The notes beneath the pieces are model-generated. The model did not search any database. It had not been told where the DNA came from and was given only the letters and a program-made list of their open reading frames with translations. A DNA stretch of 41,716 bases from Acidobacteriota bacterium (lineage in GTDB: Bacteria > Acidobacteriota > Thermoanaerobaculia > Multivoradales > JAHEKO01): NCBI GenBank assembly GCA_029862975.1, contig JAOTWP010000022.1, forward strand, positions 1-41,716. Direction: 5' to 3'. The position numbers and the translations under genes were made by a program. Every line of letters starts with the position of its first letter. Within the stretch, counting starts at the first letter, position 1. This document shows, one piece after another, positions 29,015 to 41,716 of the stretch.

Positions 29015-30100
29015 ATGCGCACTGCCACCCGAATCCTGCTCCTGGCGAGCGTCGCAGCGCTCGTGCTGTGGGGCGTCCCGGCGCTGGCCTTCCACGACGA
29101 GGGCGTCGCCCACTGCAACGGCTGCCATACCATGCACAACAGCTACGAGGGCGAGCCCGTCGACCCGGATTCCCCCGACGGCAACCCGTGGCTGCTCGTC
29201 GACGCGACGCCGAGCGACACCTGCCTCGGCTGCCACAGCTCGGCCAACTCGTCGAGAGGTGTGTTCGACGGCGACTGCTCGGCGGGTCATTCGCTCGAGA
29301 AGGGCGCCGGCAACTACATCTTCCTGACCTGCCCCGACCTGCGGGAGTCCACTCGCGGCGCGGTCATTCCGGGAGAGCGGGCGGGCCACAACCTCGACGC
29401 CCCGGGCCACGGCCTCGTCACGGACACCACCCACATCTCGGCGCCAGGCGGCACCTTCCCGGCCTTGCTGATGGGCTGCACGAGCTGCCACGATCCGCAC
29501 GGCACGTTCTCCTTCCGGCTGCTGTACGGTGCCCGTGAGGTCCAGGGTACCTACAACTTCACCAACCCACCGCCGGTGGCCGAGAAGCTGGACAGCGGCA
29601 TCGGTGGCGAGGAGCCGAACAACCACACCGCCTACCAGAGCGGCATGAGCCTGTGGTGCGGCAACTGCCACACCGACTTCGAGGACATCGGCTTGACCCA
29701 CAAGCACGTCGCCGGGGAGCCTCTCGGGCCCGGGATCGCTCTGGCCTACAACCTCTACAACGGGTCCGACGACCTGATCGGCGGCGACCCGGCCTTCGCG
29801 TACTGGCCGGAAGTGCCGTTCGAGGACGCGGGCATGACGATCGACAACACGGCGGGACCGGCTGCCTCGAGCCAGGTGATGTGCCTGACCTGCCATCGGG
29901 CGCACGCCACCTCGGCGGCCTCCTCGGGGCGCTGGGACTTCAACGTCACCTTCAACGAGGAGGACGGCGACGCCTGGGGCACGTACGAGATGGCCCAGCG
30001 GATCTCGGACCTGAGTCCGAACGCGAACCGCTCGCTGTGCAACAAGTGCCACGTCCAGGACATCGACGACGAGGTCAAGCAGGACGGCGGTCCCTACTGA
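29015..30100 (+). CDS. Hexaheme c-type cytochrome, OmcS-like (extracellular cytochrome filament subunit candidate)
   Basis: Signal peptide ending ...PALA/FHDEG; six CXXCH (CNGCH, CLGCH, CTSCH, CGNCH, CLTCH, CNKCH); FHDEGVAHCNGCHTMHNS, APGGTFP...CTSCHDPHG, GMSLWCGNCHTD, CLTCHRAHA, LCNKCH match remembered OmcS motifs in order. Confidence 0.85.
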   Translation: MRTATRILLLASVAALVLWGVPALAFHDEGVAHCNGCHTMHNSYEGEPVDPDSPDGNPWLLVDATPSDTCLGCHSSANSSRGVFDGDCSAGHSLEKGAGNYIFLTCPDLRESTRGAVIPGERAGHNLDAPGHGLVTDTTHISAPGGTFPALLMGCTSCHDPHGTFSFRLLYGAREVQGTYNFTNPPPVAEKLDSGIGGEEPNNHTAYQSGMSLWCGNCHTDFEDIGLTHKHVAGEPLGPGIALAYNLYNGSDDLIGGDPAFAYWPEVPFEDAGMTIDNTAGPAASSQVMCLTCHRAHATSAASSGRWDFNVTFNEEDGDAWGTYEMAQRISDLSPNANRSLCNKCHVQDIDDEVKQDGGPY

Positions 30101-30236: not shown

Positions 30237-32465
30237 ATGGAAAGTGTGGAGATGCGCGCCGCGGTATGCCATCCTTGCCGCGAAGGTTCTCCGAGGACGC
30301 TCGATGCCGGAAGCGCAGGGAACCACGGGAGAAGTCCGCTGAGGACAGCCGACGACGGTCTCGACCTGGGCGCCCTGCGGGCAAGGGCCAGGTTGCGGCG
30401 CCCGCTGCTGGCAGCCGCGGTGCTGTGGGCGGCGAGCACCGTTCCGGCGCGGGCCGTGGACGTCAACGGCAGCGTCCGGGCCTGGATCGGATCCGTCGAC
30501 GCCGGCGGGCTCCAGAGCGACGAGGAGGATCGGGCGTTCCGGTTGACGCTGACCCAGGAGCTGACGCCCTGGCTGTCGATCTTCGGGTCCTTCCGGGCCA
30601 CCAACTTCCGCACGACCTTCGGGCCGGGCCCGACGTTCGAGCGGACCTCCGAGCAGCCGGAGATCGGCCTCGCCTACAGCCGGAGGAACCTCAACGGGCG
30701 CCTGCTCTTCAGTGACCGGGCCATCCGAACGACGGACGAGAGCCAGGATCTCGACATTCGCACCTTCCTGGCGAGCCTGGATTGGCGTCCCCGGCGCGGC
30801 CCGCGGCTCGGCTTCCGCTTGCAGGACTCGACGAGCACCGCCGACGCCGTGCTCTTCGGCCGCGACACGGCGTCGCGCAGCCTCAACTTCCGCGCCGATT
30901 ACGCGAAGGCCACCTGGAACGCGCGCTACTTCTTCGATGTGACCGACATCACGAACAACAACACCGGCTCGAGCCTCGAACAGAGCCGGCACGAGCTGCG
31001 CACCGGCTATTTCGAGAGCCTGTGGGACGATCGCTGGTCGATCGTCCTGGACGCCAGGCTCGCCGACGTGCGCCAGGTCCAGGAGGCCGCGGCCGGGGCT
31101 ACGGTCGCCCTGCCGCTGCCGGCCGCCCAGGGCCTCTTCGCCATCGATTCGACCCCTGCTCTCGGTGAGCTGGAGCCGGCGCCACAGCTCATCGACGGCG
31201 ACACGGCGCAGCCGGCGGCGCCCGGCGTCGAGATCGGCGGTGCCAATACGTTTCGCAACATCGGCCTCGATATGGGGGTCAGCCGTCCGGTCAGCGCGCT
31301 GGAGGTGAGCGTCGACACTCCGTCCGGACCCGTCGTCTGGCAGGTCTGGCAGAGCCCGGACAACTCGAGCTGGTTCGAGGTCGGCCCGGTGGCGTCGGAC
31401 TTCGACGCCGGGTTTCTGCGCTACAACCTGCGGTTTCCAGAGACCACGGCTCAATACTTCAAGGCGGTCAACCTGTCGGTCAACCCGGTCCTCGACGTGT
31501 CCGTGACGGAGATCCGGGCGCTGCGGGCCGCCGGCGCGCTCGAGCGCACGGAAGGCACCGGCAGCGAGTACTGGCTGAATCTCCAGACCAGCTTGCAGGC
31601 CACCGAGAGGATCGAGGTCTCGGTCGGCGCCAATCTGCGGCGGGATCAGGACCTCGTCGCCACCGACGTGCGCCGCAGCTACGACGAGCGCGGGCTTTCG
31701 GCGCAGGTGCGCTCGGACCTCGGCGCCAACCTGCAGCTGCGCCTCGGATACCGGATCGCCGAGCTCGACGAGAAGGTCGAGCCCGCGCTCGAGCGCCGGC
31801 AGGAGACCGCGACCGCCGCGCTCGACTGGCAGCCGCTCGAAGCCGTCGGCGTGCTCTTCACGGCCCAGCAGCGCGATGAGACGGATGGCGCCCAGCTCTT
31901 GAGCGCCACCGATTCGCTGACCCTCCAGGCCGTCACCCGGATCTTCCCCGATCTCGTCCTCAACTCGACCTTCGGCGTCGCCGACACGAGCAACCTGCTC
32001 TTCGGCTTCTCGCAGGAGACCCGTTTCGTCGTCGAGACGGTCGAGGCCCGGCCCAACGACAGGTGGCTGCTCGGAGGGACGCTGTCGCGTCACGAGTACG
32101 ACTCGGCGGGGCGGGTCGTCGTCACCTTCCGCACCGGCGCCCGGCTGCGGGCATCCTGGTTCGCGACTCCCTTCCTGTCGCTGAGCGGGGAGTGGGGGAG
32201 GAGCGAAGACGACCTCGGCGGCACCACGACGCGGCGCCTCGGCGCGCAGTGGTCGCCGGGACCCAAGCTGGCGCTCGCGGCCAGCTTTTTCGAGACGGAT
32301 GCCTCCACGGGCGGCGGTACGTCGAACCTAGCCTTTGATGGCAGCTACCGGCTCAATCGATGGTTCCGGATGTGGCTGGCGCTCAGCGAAGCCGAGTCGC
32401 TCATCGCCACCCAGGAGCCGCAGACGACCGAAGCACTGAGGCTGGGTATCTCTGCGATATTCTGA
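30237..32465 (+). CDS. Large outer-membrane beta-barrel (porin-like) protein with internal discoidin-like domain
   Basis: Secretion-like LRRPLLAAAVLWAASTVPARA, long alternating beta-strand pattern, C-terminal Phe (LRLGISAIF); start codon uncertain. Confidence 0.75.
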   Translation: MESVEMRAAVCHPCREGSPRTLDAGSAGNHGRSPLRTADDGLDLGALRARARLRRPLLAAAVLWAASTVPARAVDVNGSVRAWIGSVDAGGLQSDEEDRAFRLTLTQELTPWLSIFGSFRATNFRTTFGPGPTFERTSEQPEIGLAYSRRNLNGRLLFSDRAIRTTDESQDLDIRTFLASLDWRPRRGPRLGFRLQDSTSTADAVLFGRDTASRSLNFRADYAKATWNARYFFDVTDITNNNTGSSLEQSRHELRTGYFESLWDDRWSIVLDARLADVRQVQEAAAGATVALPLPAAQGLFAIDSTPALGELEPAPQLIDGDTAQPAAPGVEIGGANTFRNIGLDMGVSRPVSALEVSVDTPSGPVVWQVWQSPDNSSWFEVGPVASDFDAGFLRYNLRFPETTAQYFKAVNLSVNPVLDVSVTEIRALRAAGALERTEGTGSEYWLNLQTSLQATERIEVSVGANLRRDQDLVATDVRRSYDERGLSAQVRSDLGANLQLRLGYRIAELDEKVEPALERRQETATAALDWQPLEAVGVLFTAQQRDETDGAQLLSATDSLTLQAVTRIFPDLVLNSTFGVADTSNLLFGFSQETRFVVETVEARPNDRWLLGGTLSRHEYDSAGRVVVTFRTGARLRASWFATPFLSLSGEWGRSEDDLGGTTTRRLGAQWSPGPKLALAASFFETDASTGGGTSNLAFDGSYRLNRWFRMWLALSEAESLIATQEPQTTEALRLGISAIF

Positions 32466-32486
32466 TCACGAATGGGAAGGTCCGCC

Positions 32487-33065
32487 ATGACAGAGTTGAG
32501 ACCCACGGTCGCCGCCTCGATCCTCATCGCCGGGCTGACGCTGCTCGGCTGCTCGGGCAATCTCGCCACGACCGAGTTCACGAACCCCCGCTTCGACTTC
32601 GGCTTCGTGGAGCGGGTGGCGGTGATGCCTCTCGAGGACCTGGCCGGCGATCGTCAGGCGGGGCTTCGCGCGACGCGGATGCTGATCACCGAGCTCCTGG
32701 CTTCGGGCGCAGTGGACGTCGTCGAGCCCGGCGAGCTGCAGGCCGTCGCCGATCGGGTCGTCCGCGGCCGCGGCCTGCCCTCCAAGGACGAGATCCTCGA
32801 GCTCGGCCGCCAGCTCGAGGTCCAGGCCGTCATCGTGGGGAGCGTGACGCAGTCCGAGGTGCTGCGCTCCGGCGCCGTCAGCGTGCCCGTGGTCACCCTC
32901 GACCTCCACATGCTGGAGACCGAGACCGGCACGGCGGTGTGGGCGGTGACCCACACCGAAAGAGGGTCGGGCGCTGCCGCGAAGTGGCTCGGGACCGGGG
33001 CGGAGCCGATCTCGGCGACGACCCGTAAGTGCGTCCAAGAGGCGCTGCGGAGCTTGTTTGGATGA
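32487..33065 (+). CDS. Lipoprotein with CsgG/LpoB-like domain
   Basis: Lipobox LTLLGC; VERVAVMPLEDLAGDRQAGLRATRMLITELLASGAVDVVEPGEL...VQAVIVGSVTQSE; GGGAAGG RBS before ATG 32487 (alternative ATG at 32472). Confidence 0.72.
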   Translation: MTELRPTVAASILIAGLTLLGCSGNLATTEFTNPRFDFGFVERVAVMPLEDLAGDRQAGLRATRMLITELLASGAVDVVEPGELQAVADRVVRGRGLPSKDEILELGRQLEVQAVIVGSVTQSEVLRSGAVSVPVVTLDLHMLETETGTAVWAVTHTERGSGAAAKWLGTGAEPISATTRKCVQEALRSLFG

Positions 33066-34213
33066 GGCCGGCCACCTTCGCCGGCTCCCTGCTCCTCCTC
33101 GTGGCCGCCGGACTCACCCCACCCGTGGCGGCGGAGCTGCCGCCCGGCCGCGGCGCTCTGCTGCCGGTACAGGACCGCGTCGGGGCAGCGCGGTTCGCCG
33201 GCCTCACCGAGACCCTGCTGCGACGGGAGCTCGAGCCGCTCCGCGACCTGGCCGCGAGCGACGCGGCGCGGGCCGTGCTGCGCTCCCTGCGAATCCGCGA
33301 TGCCGGCAGCGAGTCGCCGGAGCGACTGGCCGCGCTCGCGGACCGGCTGGGAGCCGAGTGGTTCTTCCTTGCCACGCTGCACGAAGCGAGATCCGGCCGG
33401 CGGTCGGCGCGCGACGGCGGCGGGACGCCGACCGATTCCGACTTCGACGATGCCGGCGAGCTTCCGCTCGTGGTCCTCTCGGCCCTCGTCTTGCGGCCCG
33501 ACTCCGAGGAGCTCTGGTGGGCGGGCTTCCACGCCGCGTCCGGTCTCGAAGGCCGGGGCGCCTTCGGTCGCGGGGGGATCGAGACCCTGGACGAGCTGGT
33601 CGCGACCGCGGTTCGCGCTCTCGTCGCGGCGGCCGATGGGCCGGAAGCGTCCCAGGAGCGGACGCGTCTGCGCCGCCGGAAAGGCGGGTTCTTGCGGGCG
33701 TCGCACGAACCCTCGCCGCCCGGCCGCGTTGCGGTGATTCCCATGGACTCGGCCGCCGTGACGACTCCGGGCGCCTCGGCCGCGGTGGCGACCGCGGCGC
33801 TGCTCGCCGCCCTCGAGGACTTCGGCTTCAAGGCTCTGCTGCCGGGTCTCGTGCGGACCATCCGGCAGCAGAGCGGGCAGGGGCAGCACGGGGCCGCGAG
33901 CCGCTCCGAATGGGAGGCTCTGGCTCGCGAGGGGGGTGCGAAGTGGGTGGCCACGGGCACCGTGGAGACCTATCGCGGCGGCCGGGGGGGGATCCCCGAC
34001 CCGGAGGTCGCCCTCGCCGTCCGTTTTCTCGACGCCGCAGACGGCAGGATCGCGTGGCTCGACGGGCTCGAGCGAACCGGCAGCGACACGGCGGTCGTCT
34101 TCGACCGCGGTCGGATCTACACGGCGGGCGGCCTGGCCTACGAGATGATGCGCGCCTTGTTCGGCGCGATGCGGACCGGCTCCGGCAACGCTGGGACGGC
34201 CGGGGGTAGCTGA
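33062..34213 (+). CDS. Exported protein with two CsgG/TolB-N-like modules
   Basis: ATGA overlap with preceding stop; signal peptide; halves GRGALLPVQDRVG..LADRLGAEWFFLATLHEA and GRVAVIPMDSAAV..AREGGAKWVATGTVETY...VRFLDAADGRIAWLDGL. Confidence 0.6.
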   Translation: MRPATFAGSLLLLVAAGLTPPVAAELPPGRGALLPVQDRVGAARFAGLTETLLRRELEPLRDLAASDAARAVLRSLRIRDAGSESPERLAALADRLGAEWFFLATLHEARSGRRSARDGGGTPTDSDFDDAGELPLVVLSALVLRPDSEELWWAGFHAASGLEGRGAFGRGGIETLDELVATAVRALVAAADGPEASQERTRLRRRKGGFLRASHEPSPPGRVAVIPMDSAAVTTPGASAAVATAALLAALEDFGFKALLPGLVRTIRQQSGQGQHGAASRSEWEALAREGGAKWVATGTVETYRGGRGGIPDPEVALAVRFLDAADGRIAWLDGLERTGSDTAVVFDRGRIYTAGGLAYEMMRALFGAMRTGSGNAGTAGGS

Positions 34214-34217
34214 CGCG

Positions 34218-35948
34218 ATGATCTTCGATTCCCTCGCGTTTTCCAGGCCGGCCGCTCCCCTCGTGGCCGCCTGCGCCCTCTTCGGGGCCGTGGCGGCCGG
34301 TTCGCAGATGGAGCTTCCTCCGACGACGGTCGCCGTGGTCAACGGCGAAGCGATCACGATCGAGGACCTGGAGAAGAGCCTGGAGACCCTCCACGGGGAA
34401 GCGGAGACCGCCCAGCGGTCTCCCGCCCGCCTCGAGCGGCTCCTGTTCAAGGCCGTCAACGACGTGCTCATCGGCCAGGAGGCGCGGGTCCTCGGTCTCC
34501 ACGAGGAGCCCCCCATTCCGGAGACGCTCGAGCGCAACCGCCGCCGTCTCGCTCTCTCCATCCTCGAGCGCGAGGAGATCGAGGGTCCCGCCGAGCCGGG
34601 GGACGACGAGGTGACGGCGATCTTCGAGGAAAGGTACCGCCGGGCCAGCTTCCACGTCCTGACCGCCGGGGACTTCGAAGGCGCGGAGCGGATCCTCGAC
34701 GCGCTGCGCGCGGGCGTCGACATCGGAACCGTGGCGCGCGAGCAGTCGATCGATCCCTACCGCGAGCAGGGCGGCCTCGTCGAGGGCGTCGCGAGGAAGG
34801 ACCTGCAGCTCGTCATCGCCGACCTCGTCTTCACGCTGGCCCCCAACGAGGTCGCCGGTCCCGTGCAGACCGATCTCGGCTGGTCGGTCGTCGTCGCGCA
34901 GTCCTTCCAGGGCCCGGACCCGGAGCTCTTCGAGGAGGCTCGCCCGCTGCTCGAGCGCCTGGCCAGGCAGCGCCGCGAGTCGACCCTGCGCCAGGAGCTC
35001 CTGGCCGGGCTGCGTTCGCGCCACGCCGTCTGGATCGATCGCGACCTGGTCGATTCGATCTCGCCCGTGCGGCGCCGGGACGGCCGGCTGACCGCCGAGA
35101 GCCCCGGCCCGGAGACGGTGGTCGCCAGGATCGGCGACGAGATCACTCTGTCCGGCGACGAGTACGCGGTGGCGCTCGAGCGCCGCTGGCGGACGATTCC
35201 CGACGAGGAGGCGGCGCGGGCGGCCGGACCGATCATCCTCGAGAACCTGATCAACGAGCGACTGCTCCTCGCCGAGGCCTACCGCCGCGGCTATCACGAG
35301 CTTCCCGCGGTACGGCGGGCGCTCCACCGGCTGGAGACCGACCTGGTCGTCCCGAAGTACCTGAGCTCGGTGCTCGCCGCCGGCGTCGAGGTGTCCGAAG
35401 AGGAGATGCGCGCCTACTACGAAGAGACCAAGGCCGGCCTCAAGCGGCCGCCTCGCGTGCAGCTCGGGCAGATCACCGTTCCGTCCCTGGAGGAGGCCGA
35501 GAGCGTTGCCGCCGCGTTGCGCGGCGGCTCCGACCTCGGCTGGCTGGCCGAGCGGCACTCGACCGACGGGCTCAGGGACAAGGGAGGAGTCAAGGGCTGG
35601 TCGGTGGTCCGGCCGGGCGGAGCCGGGCTCGACGCGGCGCTCCTCGCGGCGGAGACCGGAGCGACTCTCGACCCGGTGCCGGGGGACGGCGATTCCTGGG
35701 TGGTCTACAAGGTGCTGGCGCGGGAGGAGCAGGGGGTCTACTCGTACGAAGAGGTGTCCGGCAACATGCGCGAAGCGGTCTTCCGGCGGGAATTCACGGC
35801 GGTGCTCGATCGTTTCATCCAGAGTGCCCGCAGCCGGTCCGAGATCGAGGTCCGGGAGGACGTCCTCGCGGCTCTCGAGCTCTCGGGCACGCAGGAGGTC
35901 GAGGACGGCTCGGGACATGGAGGACATGGGGTACACGGTGAGGGCTGA
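34218..35948 (+). CDS. Exported PpiC/SurA-type peptidyl-prolyl cis-trans isomerase
   Basis: VAVVNGEAITIEDLEKSLE SurA-N-like; two rotamase-like regions (VAREQSIDPYREQGGLVEGVARKDL; LAERHSTDGLRDKGGVKGWSVV); His-rich C-terminus GHGGHGVHGEG. Confidence 0.85.
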   Translation: MIFDSLAFSRPAAPLVAACALFGAVAAGSQMELPPTTVAVVNGEAITIEDLEKSLETLHGEAETAQRSPARLERLLFKAVNDVLIGQEARVLGLHEEPPIPETLERNRRRLALSILEREEIEGPAEPGDDEVTAIFEERYRRASFHVLTAGDFEGAERILDALRAGVDIGTVAREQSIDPYREQGGLVEGVARKDLQLVIADLVFTLAPNEVAGPVQTDLGWSVVVAQSFQGPDPELFEEARPLLERLARQRRESTLRQELLAGLRSRHAVWIDRDLVDSISPVRRRDGRLTAESPGPETVVARIGDEITLSGDEYAVALERRWRTIPDEEAARAAGPIILENLINERLLLAEAYRRGYHELPAVRRALHRLETDLVVPKYLSSVLAAGVEVSEEEMRAYYEETKAGLKRPPRVQLGQITVPSLEEAESVAAALRGGSDLGWLAERHSTDGLRDKGGVKGWSVVRPGGAGLDAALLAAETGATLDPVPGDGDSWVVYKVLAREEQGVYSYEEVSGNMREAVFRREFTAVLDRFIQSARSRSEIEVREDVLAALELSGTQEVEDGSGHGGHGVHGEG

Positions 35949-37875
35949 GCGCCGGCTCGGGGGCCTCGCGATCGCCTTCTGCGTGACGTTTCTCGGCCTC
36001 GCGGGCTGGCGGGCGGCCGAGGCGCAGCTGCGCCCGGGCGCGCGCTTCGAGGAGAAGGGCCAGTGCCTGGAGTGCCACGCCGAGGTGGCGCGCGCGGTCC
36101 GCGAGCCCCATGCGCCCGTGGGGAAGGGCGACTGCGCGGCGTGCCACAAGCCGCACGGACTCGTCGGCGCCTTGCGGCTGCAGGCGGAGGAGCCGGCCCT
36201 GTGTCTCGAGTGCCACTCGGGGCAGGCCGCGGAGCTGGCGGCGAGCCATCAGCATCCCGAAGCCGGCAAGTGCTCCGCATGCCACGATCCGCACGGCTCG
36301 GACCACCCGGCGATGCTCGTCGAGCCCGAGAGAGAGCTCTGTCTGAGCTGCCATGAGGACTCCGGCTTCACGCGTCCGGTCGTCCATGCGCCGGCGGCGG
36401 AGGACTGCTCCTCCTGCCACCTGCCGCACGGCGGCCCCAATCCGCGCCTCCTCGAGCTCGAGCAAGAGGCGCTCTGCGCTACCTGCCACGACGCCGGCCC
36501 GGGGGCGGACTTCGCGACCGCCCACGGCGGCTATGCGGCCGCCGGCTCCGACTGCTCGTCGTGCCACGTGCCGCACTCGGGCTCGACGGAGGCGCTGCTG
36601 CGCGCCTCGGTCCACCCGGAGATGACCTGCGACACGTGCCACGACCCGAGCGCACCGGCCGCTGCGCTCGGGCCGGAGCTCTGCCTCGACTGCCACGAGC
36701 TGCCCCTCGAGCCCGCCGGCGGCTCGCTGCACTACCCGGCCGCGGAGGGCGCCTGTCTCGACTGCCACGACCCCCACGCCACGGACCACCAGCCGCTGCT
36801 GCTCGCCGCCGAGCGCGAGCTGTGCACCGAATGCCACGACGACGTGGCGGCTGCTCTCGACCTGCCGAGCGTGCATCCCGTGGCCGGGGAGTGCTCCTCG
36901 TGCCACGCCGGGCACGCGGCCAGCCACCCGCTGCTGCTCGCGGCCGAGGGGCGGGAGCTCTGCGTGGAGTGCCACGAGGATCCCGAGACCTCGGGCGCAG
37001 CGGTGGTGCACCCGCCGGCGGCCGGCGACTGCCTCGACTGCCACGGCCCCCACGGGACGCCGATCCGCGGCCTGCTCGTCGCCTCCCAGGAAGACCTGTG
37101 CGGAGAGTGCCACCCCGGGGTCGGCAACCGCTCCGGCCTCCCCGTCGTGCACGCGCCTGTGGCCGCCGGGGAGTGCTCGGCCTGCCATCTGCCGCACTCG
37201 GGCGGCGCGCTGCTCCTGCAGGCCGAGGGGGCCGAGCTGTGCGGCGAGTGCCACGAGTCGACCCTCCTGGCGGTGGCCGAGAGCGACCGGCATCTGCCCT
37301 TCGCGGACGGGGACTGCGCAACCTGCCACGCCGCCCACGCGTCGGAGCTCGAGAACCTGATGGCCGCTTCCGTCGGCAGCGTGTGCTCCGAGTGCCACGA
37401 CGTCGAGACGACGGCGCCGGCCGGCGGCAGCGCCCACCGCCCCGTCGTCGAGGGCGACTGCACGGCCTGTCATCAACCCCACGGCAGCGCGATCGCGGGC
37501 TTTCTCCAGGCCAGTCCGCGCCCTCTGTGCACGAGCTGCCACAGCGAGGTCGAGACCCGGCTGGCGACCCTCGACGCGCATCCGCCGGCCGTCGATGACG
37601 ATGGCTGCCTGACGTGCCACGGAGCCCACGCCTCGCCGCACGCCAACCTGCTCGCACAGAAGGTCGACGCATTGTGCACCGACTGCCACGACGGCGAGTC
37701 CGAGGAGTTCCGGAGCCTCCATCTCGGCCTGCCGGCGACGGCGATCGACTGCGGTGGCTGTCACGATCCGCATGCCTCCGAGGGCTCCGGCATGCTGCTG
37801 CCGCGGCTCCACTTCCCGTTCGCCGAGCGCGAGTGCTCGCTCTGCCACGAGGACACCGGGGGGACCGCGCCATGA
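35917..37875 (+). CDS. 26-heme doubled-CXXCH multiheme c-type cytochrome
   Basis: 26 CXXCH motifs counted, largely alternating LCxECH and DCxxCHxPHG; signal peptide; alternative start GTG 35938. Confidence 0.92.
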   Translation: MEDMGYTVRAERRLGGLAIAFCVTFLGLAGWRAAEAQLRPGARFEEKGQCLECHAEVARAVREPHAPVGKGDCAACHKPHGLVGALRLQAEEPALCLECHSGQAAELAASHQHPEAGKCSACHDPHGSDHPAMLVEPERELCLSCHEDSGFTRPVVHAPAAEDCSSCHLPHGGPNPRLLELEQEALCATCHDAGPGADFATAHGGYAAAGSDCSSCHVPHSGSTEALLRASVHPEMTCDTCHDPSAPAAALGPELCLDCHELPLEPAGGSLHYPAAEGACLDCHDPHATDHQPLLLAAERELCTECHDDVAAALDLPSVHPVAGECSSCHAGHAASHPLLLAAEGRELCVECHEDPETSGAAVVHPPAAGDCLDCHGPHGTPIRGLLVASQEDLCGECHPGVGNRSGLPVVHAPVAAGECSACHLPHSGGALLLQAEGAELCGECHESTLLAVAESDRHLPFADGDCATCHAAHASELENLMAASVGSVCSECHDVETTAPAGGSAHRPVVEGDCTACHQPHGSAIAGFLQASPRPLCTSCHSEVETRLATLDAHPPAVDDDGCLTCHGAHASPHANLLAQKVDALCTDCHDGESEEFRSLHLGLPATAIDCGGCHDPHASEGSGMLLPRLHFPFAERECSLCHEDTGGTAP

Positions 37876-39125
37876 CGACGTCGAGATCCCGCCTCGCGGT
37901 GCTCCTGCTGCCGCCGCTCGCCGCCGTCCTCTGGCTCGCGCCGGCGGCGAGCGGGGTCCCCGTGGATCAGGGCGAGGTCTGCCTCGAGTGCCATGACGAC
38001 GTCGCCGCCGAGCTCAGGCTGCCGGTCGAGCATCCGCCCGCCAAGGAGGCGGAGTGCTCCTCCTGCCACAACCCCCACGCGGCGCGCGACGCGGGTCTGC
38101 TGCTCGAGAGGCCGGCGATCCTCTGCGTCGAGTGCCACGCCGACGTCGCGGAGCAGCTGGGGCGGAGGGTCCTCCATCAGCCGGTGGCGGAAGGCCGCTG
38201 CACGAGCTGCCACCGGCCGCACGGCGCCGGCCACGAGAAGCTGCTCCTCGCGGCGGGCGCCGACCTCTGCGTGACGTGCCACGCGGACGTCGCCGGTTGG
38301 CGAGGACTCGCCAACCAGCACTCGCCGTTCGAGCGCGGGCGCTGCACCGACTGCCACGAGCCGCATGGCAGCGAGCACGAGCGCCTGCAGCGGAAGGCCG
38401 GCGGCGAGGTGTGCTCGAAATGCCATCCCGTGAGCGCCAAGTTCCGCTCCGATCACGGCGGCTACCCGGTGGAGCAGGCGAACTGCCGGCAGTGCCACGA
38501 TCCCCACGCCTCCAAGCAGGCCGGGCTCCTGCAGCCCAACGTCCACGAGCCCTTCGCGGCCGGCGACTGCACGCTGTGTCACGTCGCGGTCGGCTCGCCG
38601 GCACCGTTCGCGCTCCGTGTCACCCAGGACGAGCTCTGCGGCGACTGCCACGAGGACGCGGTCGAGGAGAACCGGTCGGCGGCGTTCCCGCACGTCGCGG
38701 CCGGCGGCTCGCGCTGCTCGGCCTGTCACAACCCCCATGGCGGGCAGGGCGGGAGCCTCCTGCGGCGCGAGACCAACGAGCTGTGCCTGTCGTGCCACGA
38801 CCCGGGGGGCAGCGCCACCGGCGGGGCGGGTCACTTCCAGACCCACTCCGAGCTCGGCTGCGATACCTGCCACGCTCCGCACGGCGGCGATCGGCCGGTG
38901 CTGCTGGCGGACGATCCCATCGAGCTGTGCGGCCTGTGCCACTCGCACCAGCACGCCATCACGCATCCGCTGGGCGAGGAGGTGCGGGATCCGCGCAACG
39001 GCCAGGCGCTGGACTGTCTGTCCTGCCACGGCATCCACGAGGCGACGGCGGACAAGTACCTCCACAAGAGCGGCACCCGCGATCTCTGCCTCGGCTGCCA
39101 CAAGGACAAGGGGGTGGTGCGTTGA
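37872..39125 (+). CDS. 16-heme doubled-CXXCH multiheme c-type cytochrome
   Basis: 16 CXXCH motifs counted; signal peptide; ATGA overlap with preceding gene. Confidence 0.92.
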   Translation: MTTSRSRLAVLLLPPLAAVLWLAPAASGVPVDQGEVCLECHDDVAAELRLPVEHPPAKEAECSSCHNPHAARDAGLLLERPAILCVECHADVAEQLGRRVLHQPVAEGRCTSCHRPHGAGHEKLLLAAGADLCVTCHADVAGWRGLANQHSPFERGRCTDCHEPHGSEHERLQRKAGGEVCSKCHPVSAKFRSDHGGYPVEQANCRQCHDPHASKQAGLLQPNVHEPFAAGDCTLCHVAVGSPAPFALRVTQDELCGDCHEDAVEENRSAAFPHVAAGGSRCSACHNPHGGQGGSLLRRETNELCLSCHDPGGSATGGAGHFQTHSELGCDTCHAPHGGDRPVLLADDPIELCGLCHSHQHAITHPLGEEVRDPRNGQALDCLSCHGIHEATADKYLHKSGTRDLCLGCHKDKGVVR

Positions 39126-40042
39126 GACGCGGTGCGTCGAGACGCGAAGCCGCGTCGCTCGTCGGGCGTCGACTGGCGCTCCTCGTCGCCGTGGCGTCCA
39201 TCTGGGCGGCGCCGGCCGCCGGGCAGGACGGCGCGACGCTCTACGCCTTCGACGAGGCGGTCGCGGGCGGCGAGACGCTGCGGCTGCGCTGGCCGACCGC
39301 GGTCGCCGCCGGCGGCGCCGACGAGATCGCCGTCGCCGACGCCGAGGGGCCCTCGCTCGCCGTCTTCCGCGATCTCGGCGGCGGCGAAGGCTGGGTCGTC
39401 CACGCCGCGATCGAGCTTCCGGCTCCGGCCTACAGCGTGTCGTGCGGCGCCGATTTCTACCTGATCTCCACCCGCCGGCCAGGAGTTCTGCTGACCGTCG
39501 CCAAGAGCGACTACACCCTGCGCGAGCTCGCCCTGGCGCCGGGCATCACGCCGGGCGCCGCGACCTGCCTGCCCGACGACCGGCTGCTCGTCCACGATCT
39601 GGCCGCCGGCCGGCTGGTCGTTCTCGACGGCGCCGGGAAGGTGCTGACGGCGGTGGCGATCGCCGAGACGGTCGCCGCGCTGGCCCCCGGAGCGGGCGGC
39701 GGCTTCTACGCCGCCCTTCCCGGCGCGGGGGAGGTGCGGCGCTACGGCGCCAACGGCGAGCAGCTGTCGTCGCTGAAGCTGCCGGGGGTGGGTCCGACGC
39801 CCGCCTGGCCGGTGGGTCTGGCCGTCGAGGCCAACGGCGAGGTCGTCGTCGTCGATCGGCACGGGGGCAGGATCCTCGTCGTGGAAGCGAGCGGCCGCCT
39901 GGCAGGCTCCGGCTCGCGCAAGGGGTGGGAGCCCGGCCTGCTGCGCTTCCCGGCCAGCCTTGCCAGGCTCCCGGACGGCAGGGTCGTGGTCGCCGATCAG
40001 GGCAACGGGCGGGTCCAGCTGTTCCGCCGCCTCGAAGAATGA
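39122..40042 (+). CDS. Exported NHL/beta-propeller repeat protein
   Basis: TTG start overlapping the preceding TGA; signal peptide LALLVAVASIWAAPAAGQ; LPDGRVVVADQGNGRVQLFRRLEE NHL-type repeat. Confidence 0.78.
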   Translation: MRRGASRREAASLVGRRLALLVAVASIWAAPAAGQDGATLYAFDEAVAGGETLRLRWPTAVAAGGADEIAVADAEGPSLAVFRDLGGGEGWVVHAAIELPAPAYSVSCGADFYLISTRRPGVLLTVAKSDYTLRELALAPGITPGAATCLPDDRLLVHDLAAGRLVVLDGAGKVLTAVAIAETVAALAPGAGGGFYAALPGAGEVRRYGANGEQLSSLKLPGVGPTPAWPVGLAVEANGEVVVVDRHGGRILVVEASGRLAGSGSRKGWEPGLLRFPASLARLPDGRVVVADQGNGRVQLFRRLEE

Positions 40043-41716
40043 GGGCTCGCGGCGGCAGCACGGTGCTGGTCGGCGTGCTGGCGGGACTGCTCCTGCTCGT
40101 CGCGGACGCCTCCCTGGGCCAGCCGCCCGGCCCGATCCCTCCCCGCTACGCCCAGCGCCTGCGGATGCCCATCCGCGGCGATGACCTCCAGCAGCCGCGC
40201 GCGGTCGTCGCCGACCCGCACACCGGGGAGATCTTCGTCTGCGACGGCCTGCGCAACCGGATCGTCATCTTCGACGAGGAGGGCCGGTTCCGCTACGAGA
40301 TCCCGGGGGGCAGCGATTTTCAAACGCCGATCGACGTCGCCGTGGATCCCCAAGGGTACCTCTTCGTGCTGGGCCAGGTCAGCGGCCGGATCATGCTGCT
40401 CGACTTCGACGGGCGACTCGTCCGCGGACTGCCGCTCGAGGGCCTGCCGGAGGACGCCGGAAGCCCCGGCTTCGCCTCCCTGGCGATCTCGCCGAGCGGC
40501 GAGAGACTCTACCTGCTGGACGCCGAGAACGACCGCCTGTGGATGGCCGATCGCGAGGGCGCGATCCTGGGCGCAGTCGACTTCACGGCCGGCCGCACGC
40601 CAAAGGAGATCGACGAGCTGCGCTACGGCCACGTCGACGTCTACGGCGACACGGTGCTCGTCGCGGTGCCGAGCGACGGGCTCGTGCACCTCTTCGACCT
40701 GGAAGGCCGCGCCAAGGGGACCGTCGGCGCCCAGGGCGCCGCGGAGTGCCAGACCATGTTCCCCGTCGCCGCGGCGCTCGACGACCAGGGGAGGGCGATC
40801 ATCCTCGACCAGCAGCGGGCCCTCTTCATGACCTGGGACCTGGCGCGCAACGCCTGCCTGAGCGAGCACTACGGCTTCGGCAACGCGCCCGGCGCCTTCT
40901 ATCAGCCCAGCGACCTCGCCCTCGACGCCGCGGGCCGCCTCTGGGTCAGCCAGGGCTTCGAGGGACGGGTCCAGGTCTACGAGGGGGCTCGCCCGGCGCT
41001 CGCGCTGCTCGCGGCCGCGCCGCCCGCGCCGCCCGCCCCGGAAGCCTCCGCGGAGCCCTCGATCGCCGGCCTGGGGACGGGCGGGCAGGAGCCCGAGGAG
41101 CCCGGCGCCGCGGCCCTTCCGCCGGCAGAGCCCGCCGCGCCGGCGGAGCCCGAAGTCGCGACGGCCGAGGCGAAGCTGCTTCCGCCGGCAGAGCCCGCCG
41201 CGCCGGCGGAGCCCGACGTCGCGACGGCCGAGGCGAGGCTCCTTCCGCCGGTAGAGCCCGCCGCGCCGGCGGAGCCCGAGGTCGCGACGGCCGAGGCGAG
41301 GCTCCTTCCGCCGGTAGAGCCCGCCGCGCCGGCGGAGCCCGAGGTCGCGACGGCCGAGGCGAAGCTGCTTCCTCCGGTAGAGCCCGCCGCGCCGGCGGAG
41401 CCAGAGGTCGCGACGGCCGAGGCGAAGCTGCTTCCGCCGGTAGAGCCCGCCGCGCCGGCGGAGCCCGACGTCGCGACGGCCGAGGCCGAGCCCCGTCTCG
41501 TTGCGGGCGCTCTGCTGTCGGTCGCGAGGGCGCCGCGCTACGATCCCAGCTACGCCGAGCTCGCCTATCCGGGAGGCGACGTGGCGGCCGACCGCGGTGC
41601 CGCCGTCGACGTCGTCGTCCGCGCCTTCCGCCACGCGGGGGTCGATCTGCAGCGAGCGGTCCACGAGGACATCGTCGCCGCCCCCGCGGCCTACGGGATC
41701 GCGGAGCCCGACGCGA
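40039..41716 (+). CDS. Exported NHL-repeat protein with Pro/Ala/Glu repeat linker and C-terminal DUF1287-like domain (runs off window)
   Basis: Manual translation from ATG 40039 has no stop to the edge: QQPRAVVADPHTGEIFVCDGLRNRIVIFDEEG...; six 21-aa repeats; RYDPSYAELAYPGGDVAADRGAAVDVVVRAFRHAGVDLQRAVHEDI resembles DUF1287. Absent from the ORF track because it lacks a stop in the window. Confidence 0.82.
   Translation, partial: MRARGGSTVLVGVLAGLLLLVADASLGQPPGPIPPRYAQRLRMPIRGDDLQQPRAVVADPHTGEIFVCDGLRNRIVIFDEEGRFRYEIPGGSDFQTPIDVAVDPQGYLFVLGQVSGRIMLLDFDGRLVRGLPLEGLPEDAGSPGFASLAISPSGERLYLLDAENDRLWMADREGAILGAVDFTAGRTPKEIDELRYGHVDVYGDTVLVAVPSDGLVHLFDLEGRAKGTVGAQGAAECQTMFPVAAALDDQGRAIILDQQRALFMTWDLARNACLSEHYGFGNAPGAFYQPSDLALDAAGRLWVSQGFEGRVQVYEGARPALALLAAAPPAPPAPEASAEPSIAGLGTGGQEPEEPGAAALPPAEPAAPAEPEVATAEAKLLPPAEPAAPAEPDVATAEARLLPPVEPAAPAEPEVATAEARLLPPVEPAAPAEPEVATAEAKLLPPVEPAAPAEPEVATAEAKLLPPVEPAAPAEPDVATAEAEPRLVAGALLSVARAPRYDPSYAELAYPGGDVAADRGAAVDVVVRAFRHAGVDLQRAVHEDIVAAPAAYGIAEPDA
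41116..41493 (+). repeat. Six tandem in-frame 63-bp repeats (21 aa: LPPxEPAAPAEPxVATAEAxL)
   Basis: Units begin at 41116, 41179, 41242, 41305, 41368, 41431 with few substitutions. Confidence 0.95.

Follow-up and report, generated by a model that had tools for sequence, protein, structure and literature searches.

The locus analysed here raises the question whether an uncultured acidobacterium encodes a cytochrome nanowire of the kind known from Geobacter. An earlier note on the same DNA had proposed this for one hexaheme protein, which it considered to resemble OmcS, the filament-forming cytochrome of Geobacter sulfurreducens. The gene in question lies at 29015-30100 of the window, i.e., the whole stretch of DNA that was analysed (41,716 nucleotides), and like all features described below it is read on the forward strand.

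The hexaheme cytochrome and its relationship to OmcS

The open reading frame 29015-30100 (ATG start, 361 amino acids) contains exactly six CXXCH motifs. Its N terminus, with n- and h-regions read from the sequence, is a putative signal peptide (29015-29089) that would be cleaved between PALA and FH, and the mature start FHDEG that follows this site aligns with residue 1 of OmcS. The product, as predicted from its sequence, is a secreted hexaheme c-type cytochrome with a mature part of 336 amino acids (29090-30097). The first heme motif, CNGCH (C34-H38, 29114-29128), is invariant in an alignment of 94 homologs. It is followed by CLGCH (C70-H74, 29222-29236), CTSCH (C155-H159, 29477-29491), CGNCH (C215-H219, 29657-29671) and CLTCH (C290-H294, 29882-29896), all four taken from sequence and alignment, and by CNKCH (C342-H346, 30038-30052), which is found in 93 of the 94 rows, the remaining row being truncated. 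The motifs that the earlier note had named are all present, namely FHDEGVAHCNGCHTMHNS, LLVDATPSDTCLGCH, GERAGHN...DTTHISAPGGTFPA..CTSCHDPHG, GMSLWCGNCHTD, CLTCHRAHA and RSLCNKCH. In one homolog, from a genome of the same family as the host (L005, G011:C556), the heme-4 motif reads CGNGH rather than CGNCH, which reflects either a lost attachment cysteine or a sequence error.

The comparison with OmcS that the earlier note had proposed was carried out both with the single sequence and with a family profile. In a phmmer search of the PDB, the window protein matched OmcS (6ef8/6nef) collinearly at E=5.3e-38, well above what chance would give, and nothing else of weight. The identity is 37% across 316 aligned residues, the six heme motifs keep the order that they have in OmcS, and the homology is full-length. 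A profile built from the 94 homologs matched OmcS over its full extent of 1-407 (E=4.6e-134) and no other sequence in the PDB. The fold was computed with AlphaFold2 from 94 sequences (pLDDT 80.9, pTM 0.82), a run with 12 sequences having been discarded at pLDDT 33. When this model was compared with the PDB by Foldseek, 6ef8 was the single significant match, at E=2.3e-20, with a probability of 1.00 and a TM-score of 0.77 normalised to the query. As far as sequence and predicted fold indicate, OmcS (6ef8/6nef) is the sole solved relative of the protein.

These searches also bear on the alternative that the gene encodes a surface or periplasmic multiheme cytochrome unrelated to filaments, i.e., a soluble or porin-bound reductase of the Mtr/Omc porin-cytochrome type. 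In Pfam, the MtrC/MtrF domains and NapC/NirT match weakly and below threshold, which points in this direction, as do the putative barrel and the large multiheme cytochromes encoded next to the gene. However, the fold search gave OmcS and no Mtr-type protein (a chain of the Mtr complex was listed at E=9), the family profile is specific to OmcS, and the NCBIfam models for decaheme cytochromes and for NrfH score far below their cut-offs. A reductase of this type is thus very unlikely, and a periplasmic or Mtr-type identity was rejected on the strength of the fold search. The best matches lie with OmcS and its heme order, and not among periplasmic families lacking this order, where the earlier note would have looked for a refutation.

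The histidines tell a similar story. Among the 94 homologs, which come from many phyla, exactly 12 histidines are invariant: the six of the CXXCH motifs, save that the last of these is missing from the one truncated row, and six others, which are present in 94 of 94 and align with OmcS. These six candidates for the distal axial ligands are (numbering of mature OmcS after the coordinates) H27 (29093-29095; H2), H41 (29135-29137; H16), H125 (29387-29389; H110), H162 (29498-29500; H147), H231 (29705-29707; H257) and H297 (29903-29905; H335). Of the eleven histidines that OmcS has in addition to those of its CXXCH motifs, the window protein shares only these six; its own remaining histidines each occur in between 2 and 57 of the 94 homologs. 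According to the literature on the OmcS structure, H16 is the inter-subunit heme ligand of OmcS, and H41 is the corresponding candidate in the window protein. Judged from the alignment, none of the 12 axial ligands for bis-histidine coordination is missing from the window protein. In OmcS, 11 of the 12 histidine ligands come from the same subunit and one from its neighbour, and the hemes run in motif order (PMC6584659). Since the six histidines are invariant throughout the family, including paralogs that are not known as wire formers, the ligand set speaks for an OmcS-type architecture, but not for polymerisation.

The protein also differs from OmcS in size. As the earlier note had observed, the protein is shorter, with 336 instead of 407 mature residues, and the approximately 71 missing residues fall mostly in three loops. 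Between the region of the third heme (H162) and the motif of heme 4, the loop is reduced to 57 residues (96 in OmcS), the loop between hemes 4 and 5 to 63 (75 in OmcS), and that between hemes 5 and 6 to 49 (69 in OmcS), while the spacings around heme 3 are the same. Sequence, predicted fold, the order of the hemes and the 12 axial histidines all bear out membership in the OmcS family.

The downstream gene run

The OmcS-like gene opens a run of nine genes, with 4-bp start/stop overlaps at 33062, 37872, 39122 and 40039. In Geobacter, a block of eight genes (GSU2500-GSU2493) has been connected with the maturation and secretion of OmcS (PMC12977616). Seven of the eight gene types of this osc block (OscE, F, G, H, I, J and K) are present in the window in Geobacter order, the Osc letters having been given to the window genes by gene order and domain content. 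The OscE-like gene (30237-32465, 742 amino acids) encodes a putative outer-membrane barrel. The protein has no Pfam hit; syntenic homologs stand beside OmcS-type genes in many phyla, including one in a Geobacter locus (L084) at 3e-13. The OscF-like gene (32472-33065) encodes a predicted lipoprotein with an LpoB/CsgG-type domain (Pfam LpoB 1.7e-5 and CsgG 4.8e-5, both over the cut-off) and has syntenic homologs as well; it overlaps by 4 bp (ATGA) with the OscG-like gene (33062-34213), whose LpoB/CsgG-like product is its distant relative. The next gene (34218-35948) encodes an OscH-like protein, probably a chaperone of the periplasm, which has two prolyl isomerase domains of the PpiC type (Pfam Rotamase_2 7.3e-22, Rotamase 6.8e-12) and again syntenic homologs.

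Two large cytochromes follow. The OscI-like protein (35926-37875, 649 amino acids) has 26 CXXCH motifs (Pfam Paired_CXXCH_1 5.8e-125) and resembles GSU2495, a 26-heme protein of ~70 kDa; in most complete loci, the large cytochrome has exactly 26 hemes. The OscJ-like protein (37872-39125, 417 amino acids) has 16 CXXCH motifs and is likewise recognised by Pfam. In three loci (L032:5239-8532, L038:5368-8598 and, on the reverse strand, L069:11115-14303), the two are fused in one frame, without stops, to a protein of ~1060-1100 amino acids with 42 CXXCH motifs that aligns end to end with the two window cytochromes. This fusion supports the notion that the 26- and 16-heme proteins act as one unit.

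The run continues with an OscK-like NHL beta-propeller protein (39122-40042; Pfam NHL 2e-13, and synteny) and closes with a gene for an NHL propeller joined to Pro/Ala/Glu-rich repeats and a DUF1287 domain (40039-41716; Pfam NHL, DUF1287 2.5e-18), which is cut by the contig end. The end of the window contig overlaps another contig of the same genome, C114, over 230 bp at 97.8%, and the gene continues there. It is followed by a second OmcS-like gene (C114:903-1937; 49% identical). In a relative from the same family (G006), a single contig carries the two OmcS-type genes at a distance of 12.5 kb. The fusion of NHL propeller, repeats and DUF1287 directly before the second OmcS-like gene (window 40039-41716, L002:1-876) has its contig break close to the repeats, and DUF1287-like sequence is also found in a same-genus locus (L011). 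A copy of the second gene, together with an NHL protein close to that of the window, occurs in a MAG labelled Gammaproteobacteria (L039), which is probably mis-binned or mislabelled.

An OscD-type propeller lipoprotein is absent from its usual place in the window, the interval between cytochrome and barrel, where most other loci carry such a gene. By gene content and order, the nine-gene run closely resembles the osc (omcS-companion) operon, with OscD as the one gene type not found where it would be expected. The operon and its conservation were computed across genomes. The same gene order is found in loci from Krumholzibacteriota, Calditrichota, Nitrospirota, Myxococcota and Desulfuromonadia/Geobacter, and the operon occurs in at least six phyla. 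This operon, which the earlier note did not mention, is the strongest supporting evidence for the nanowire proposal.

Phylogeny, distribution and host

In a maximum-likelihood tree of 95 rows, the window protein is one of 45 sequences, most of them short, that make up one side (support 95), within which an inner group of 37 rows has support of 100 and a stem of 0.41. This compact side holds sequences from Acidobacteriota, Krumholzibacteriota, Calditrichota, Zixibacteria, Delongbacteria, Gemmatimonadota and Poribacteria, and some of its members carry a seventh CXXCH (L034, L036, L045). On the opposite side stand Geobacter OmcS, the Geobacter genes in OscC position, homologs from Nitrospirota and Myxococcota, and several long acidobacterial homologs. 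Such long, Geobacter-side homologs are found in some Acidobacteriota (L009, L101-L103, L109, L110), and in two genomes (G277 and G299) the long type occurs alongside the short one. A tree in which the window row and the two sequences closest to it are held together with Geobacter OmcS was rejected by the AU test (p-AU 1.8e-5). The protein is OmcS-like in the sense of family membership, but not of orthology, and belongs to a separate clade of short homologs. The mixture of phyla in the compact clade suggests horizontal transfer, as far as a gene tree can indicate this.

The position of the gene brings up the most serious alternative. By position, the window gene corresponds to the OscC paralog (GSU2501) and not to omcS (GSU2504), as it lies directly upstream of the secretion block. 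It may thus encode an OscC-like hexaheme monomer that does not polymerise and acts at the outer membrane as an electron-transfer partner or adaptor for a secretion or conduit complex, with another cytochrome, perhaps the product of the C114 gene, forming the wire. That the same operon has a second OmcS-like gene, and that OscC occurs even where omcS is absent, would fit this. However, an OmcS-type gene precedes the block in many compact-clade genomes, as expected of its main product, the window protein stands apart in the tree from the Geobacter genes in OscC position, and it has kept the predicted fold and the full ligand set of a filament former. We consider the monomer unlikely, but it is an alternative to be taken seriously.

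The earlier note had suspected a genome other than Geobacter, and this is supported. The host is an uncultured acidobacterium of the Thermoanaerobaculia type, represented by a genome of 4.49 Mb that is 93% complete and in which the window is contig C220; further multiheme cytochromes are encoded on at least nine other contigs. One could suspect that the window contig stems from a Geobacter-like organism and was binned erroneously into an acidobacterial MAG, given that this MAG consists of 309 contigs and that the family is patchy in Acidobacteriota (13 of 396 sampled genomes). Against this, copies with 80% identity, the second copy included, are found in one genome of the same genus and one of the same family (G006), and the closest relatives in the tree are from Acidobacteriota and Krumholzibacteriota-type genomes, not from Geobacter. 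On the basis of the same-genus copies and the tree, contamination was rejected, and we regard it as extremely improbable.

Possible function and comparison with known systems

Taken together, we favor the reading that the window gene encodes a compact cytochrome of the OmcS family, which most likely assembles head to tail into an extracellular conductive filament and is served by the osc-type genes downstream. Since this shortened relative of OmcS adjoins a near-complete set of the genes that reportedly serve the folding and secretion of such nanowires in Geobacter, the acidobacterium probably makes electron-conducting surface filaments. Points against this reading are that the protein does not belong to the clade with the proven filament, that OscD is absent from its expected position, and that OmcS filaments are reported to be dispensable for Fe(III) oxide reduction in Geobacter.

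Polymerisation, secretion route, electron path and acceptor are inferred, and they may be pictured as follows. The exported bis-histidine hexaheme subunit, with its hemes stacked in motif order, would polymerise head to tail such that one of the six distal histidines caps a heme of the next subunit. The double prolyl isomerase protein could assist the folding of this loop-rich cytochrome, and the barrel and the LpoB/CsgG-like proteins may form an export channel across the outer membrane. For Geobacter, roles of OscH in folding, of OscEFG in secretion and of OscD in morphology are given in a report that cites Shen et al. 2025 (PMC13194489). Electrons would pass from periplasmic carriers via the 26- and 16-heme cytochromes to the outer-membrane assembly and on to the hexaheme polymer, by which the host may respire Fe(III)/Mn(IV) oxides, humics or partner cells. 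Proof of a filament would not by itself settle its physiological role, because Geobacter deficient in OmcS still reduces Fe(III) oxide (PMC11077965); the role of OmcS filaments is itself disputed.

With respect to novelty, the expectation of the earlier note that the protein would extend the range of cytochrome nanowires has been overtaken by the literature. In 2021, an acidobacterial MAG was reported to encode OmcS-like hexaheme proteins in clusters with cytochromes and beta-barrels (PMC8528874), OmcS homologs have been described as widespread (PMC10954620), and Shen et al. 2025 use the words widespread and ancient for the assembly machinery in their title. What is new is thus limited to the compact branch, the altered operon layout and the host group. 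In a text search of a partial literature collection, no paper was found for OmcS together with Krumholzibacteria, and Zixibacteria together with nanowire gave only a general iron-gene tool paper. As a tentative idea, to which we would not yet commit ourselves, there may be a class of compact OmcS-type nanowires outside the known-filament clade, with subunits of ~335 residues in Acidobacteriota, Krumholzibacteriota, Calditrichota, Zixibacteria and Delongbacteria. Export would depend on osc genes, in some lineages without OscD, and two different hexaheme subunits at the operon ends would allow alternative or mixed, probably thinner filaments.

If filaments form, the OmcS nanowire and its secretion machinery would be common to many uncultured sediment phyla that are rarely counted as electroactive. 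The smaller version would then show which parts of OmcS are essential (the 12 histidines and the heme order) and which loops are dispensable, and it would help in structural studies, in the dissection of the osc machinery and in telling which sediment bacteria are able to exchange electrons with minerals or other cells.

Among the known systems, OmcS of G. sulfurreducens (GSU2504), whose filament has a rise of 47 A, has in common with the window protein the order of the six CXXCH motifs, the N terminus FH..GVA.C.GCHTMHNS, the six distal-type histidines and the predicted fold, whereas the window protein is shorter, with three reduced loops, belongs to a separate clade and forms a filament only putatively. 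The OmcS-like cytochromes of Ca. Polarisedimenticola svalbardensis (PMC8528874) come from the same phylum but another class, and are likened to the window protein by description only. Geobacter OscC (GSU2501) is a hexaheme OmcS homolog that shares the place of the window gene before the secretion block, but it belongs to a different clade and is followed by OscD. The Geobacter osc operon as a whole has OscE- to OscK-type genes in the same order, the 26-heme gene included. The window run differs from it in that no OscD lies between cytochrome and barrel, and in that a second OmcS-like gene stands at its far end, after the NHL-DUF1287 protein.
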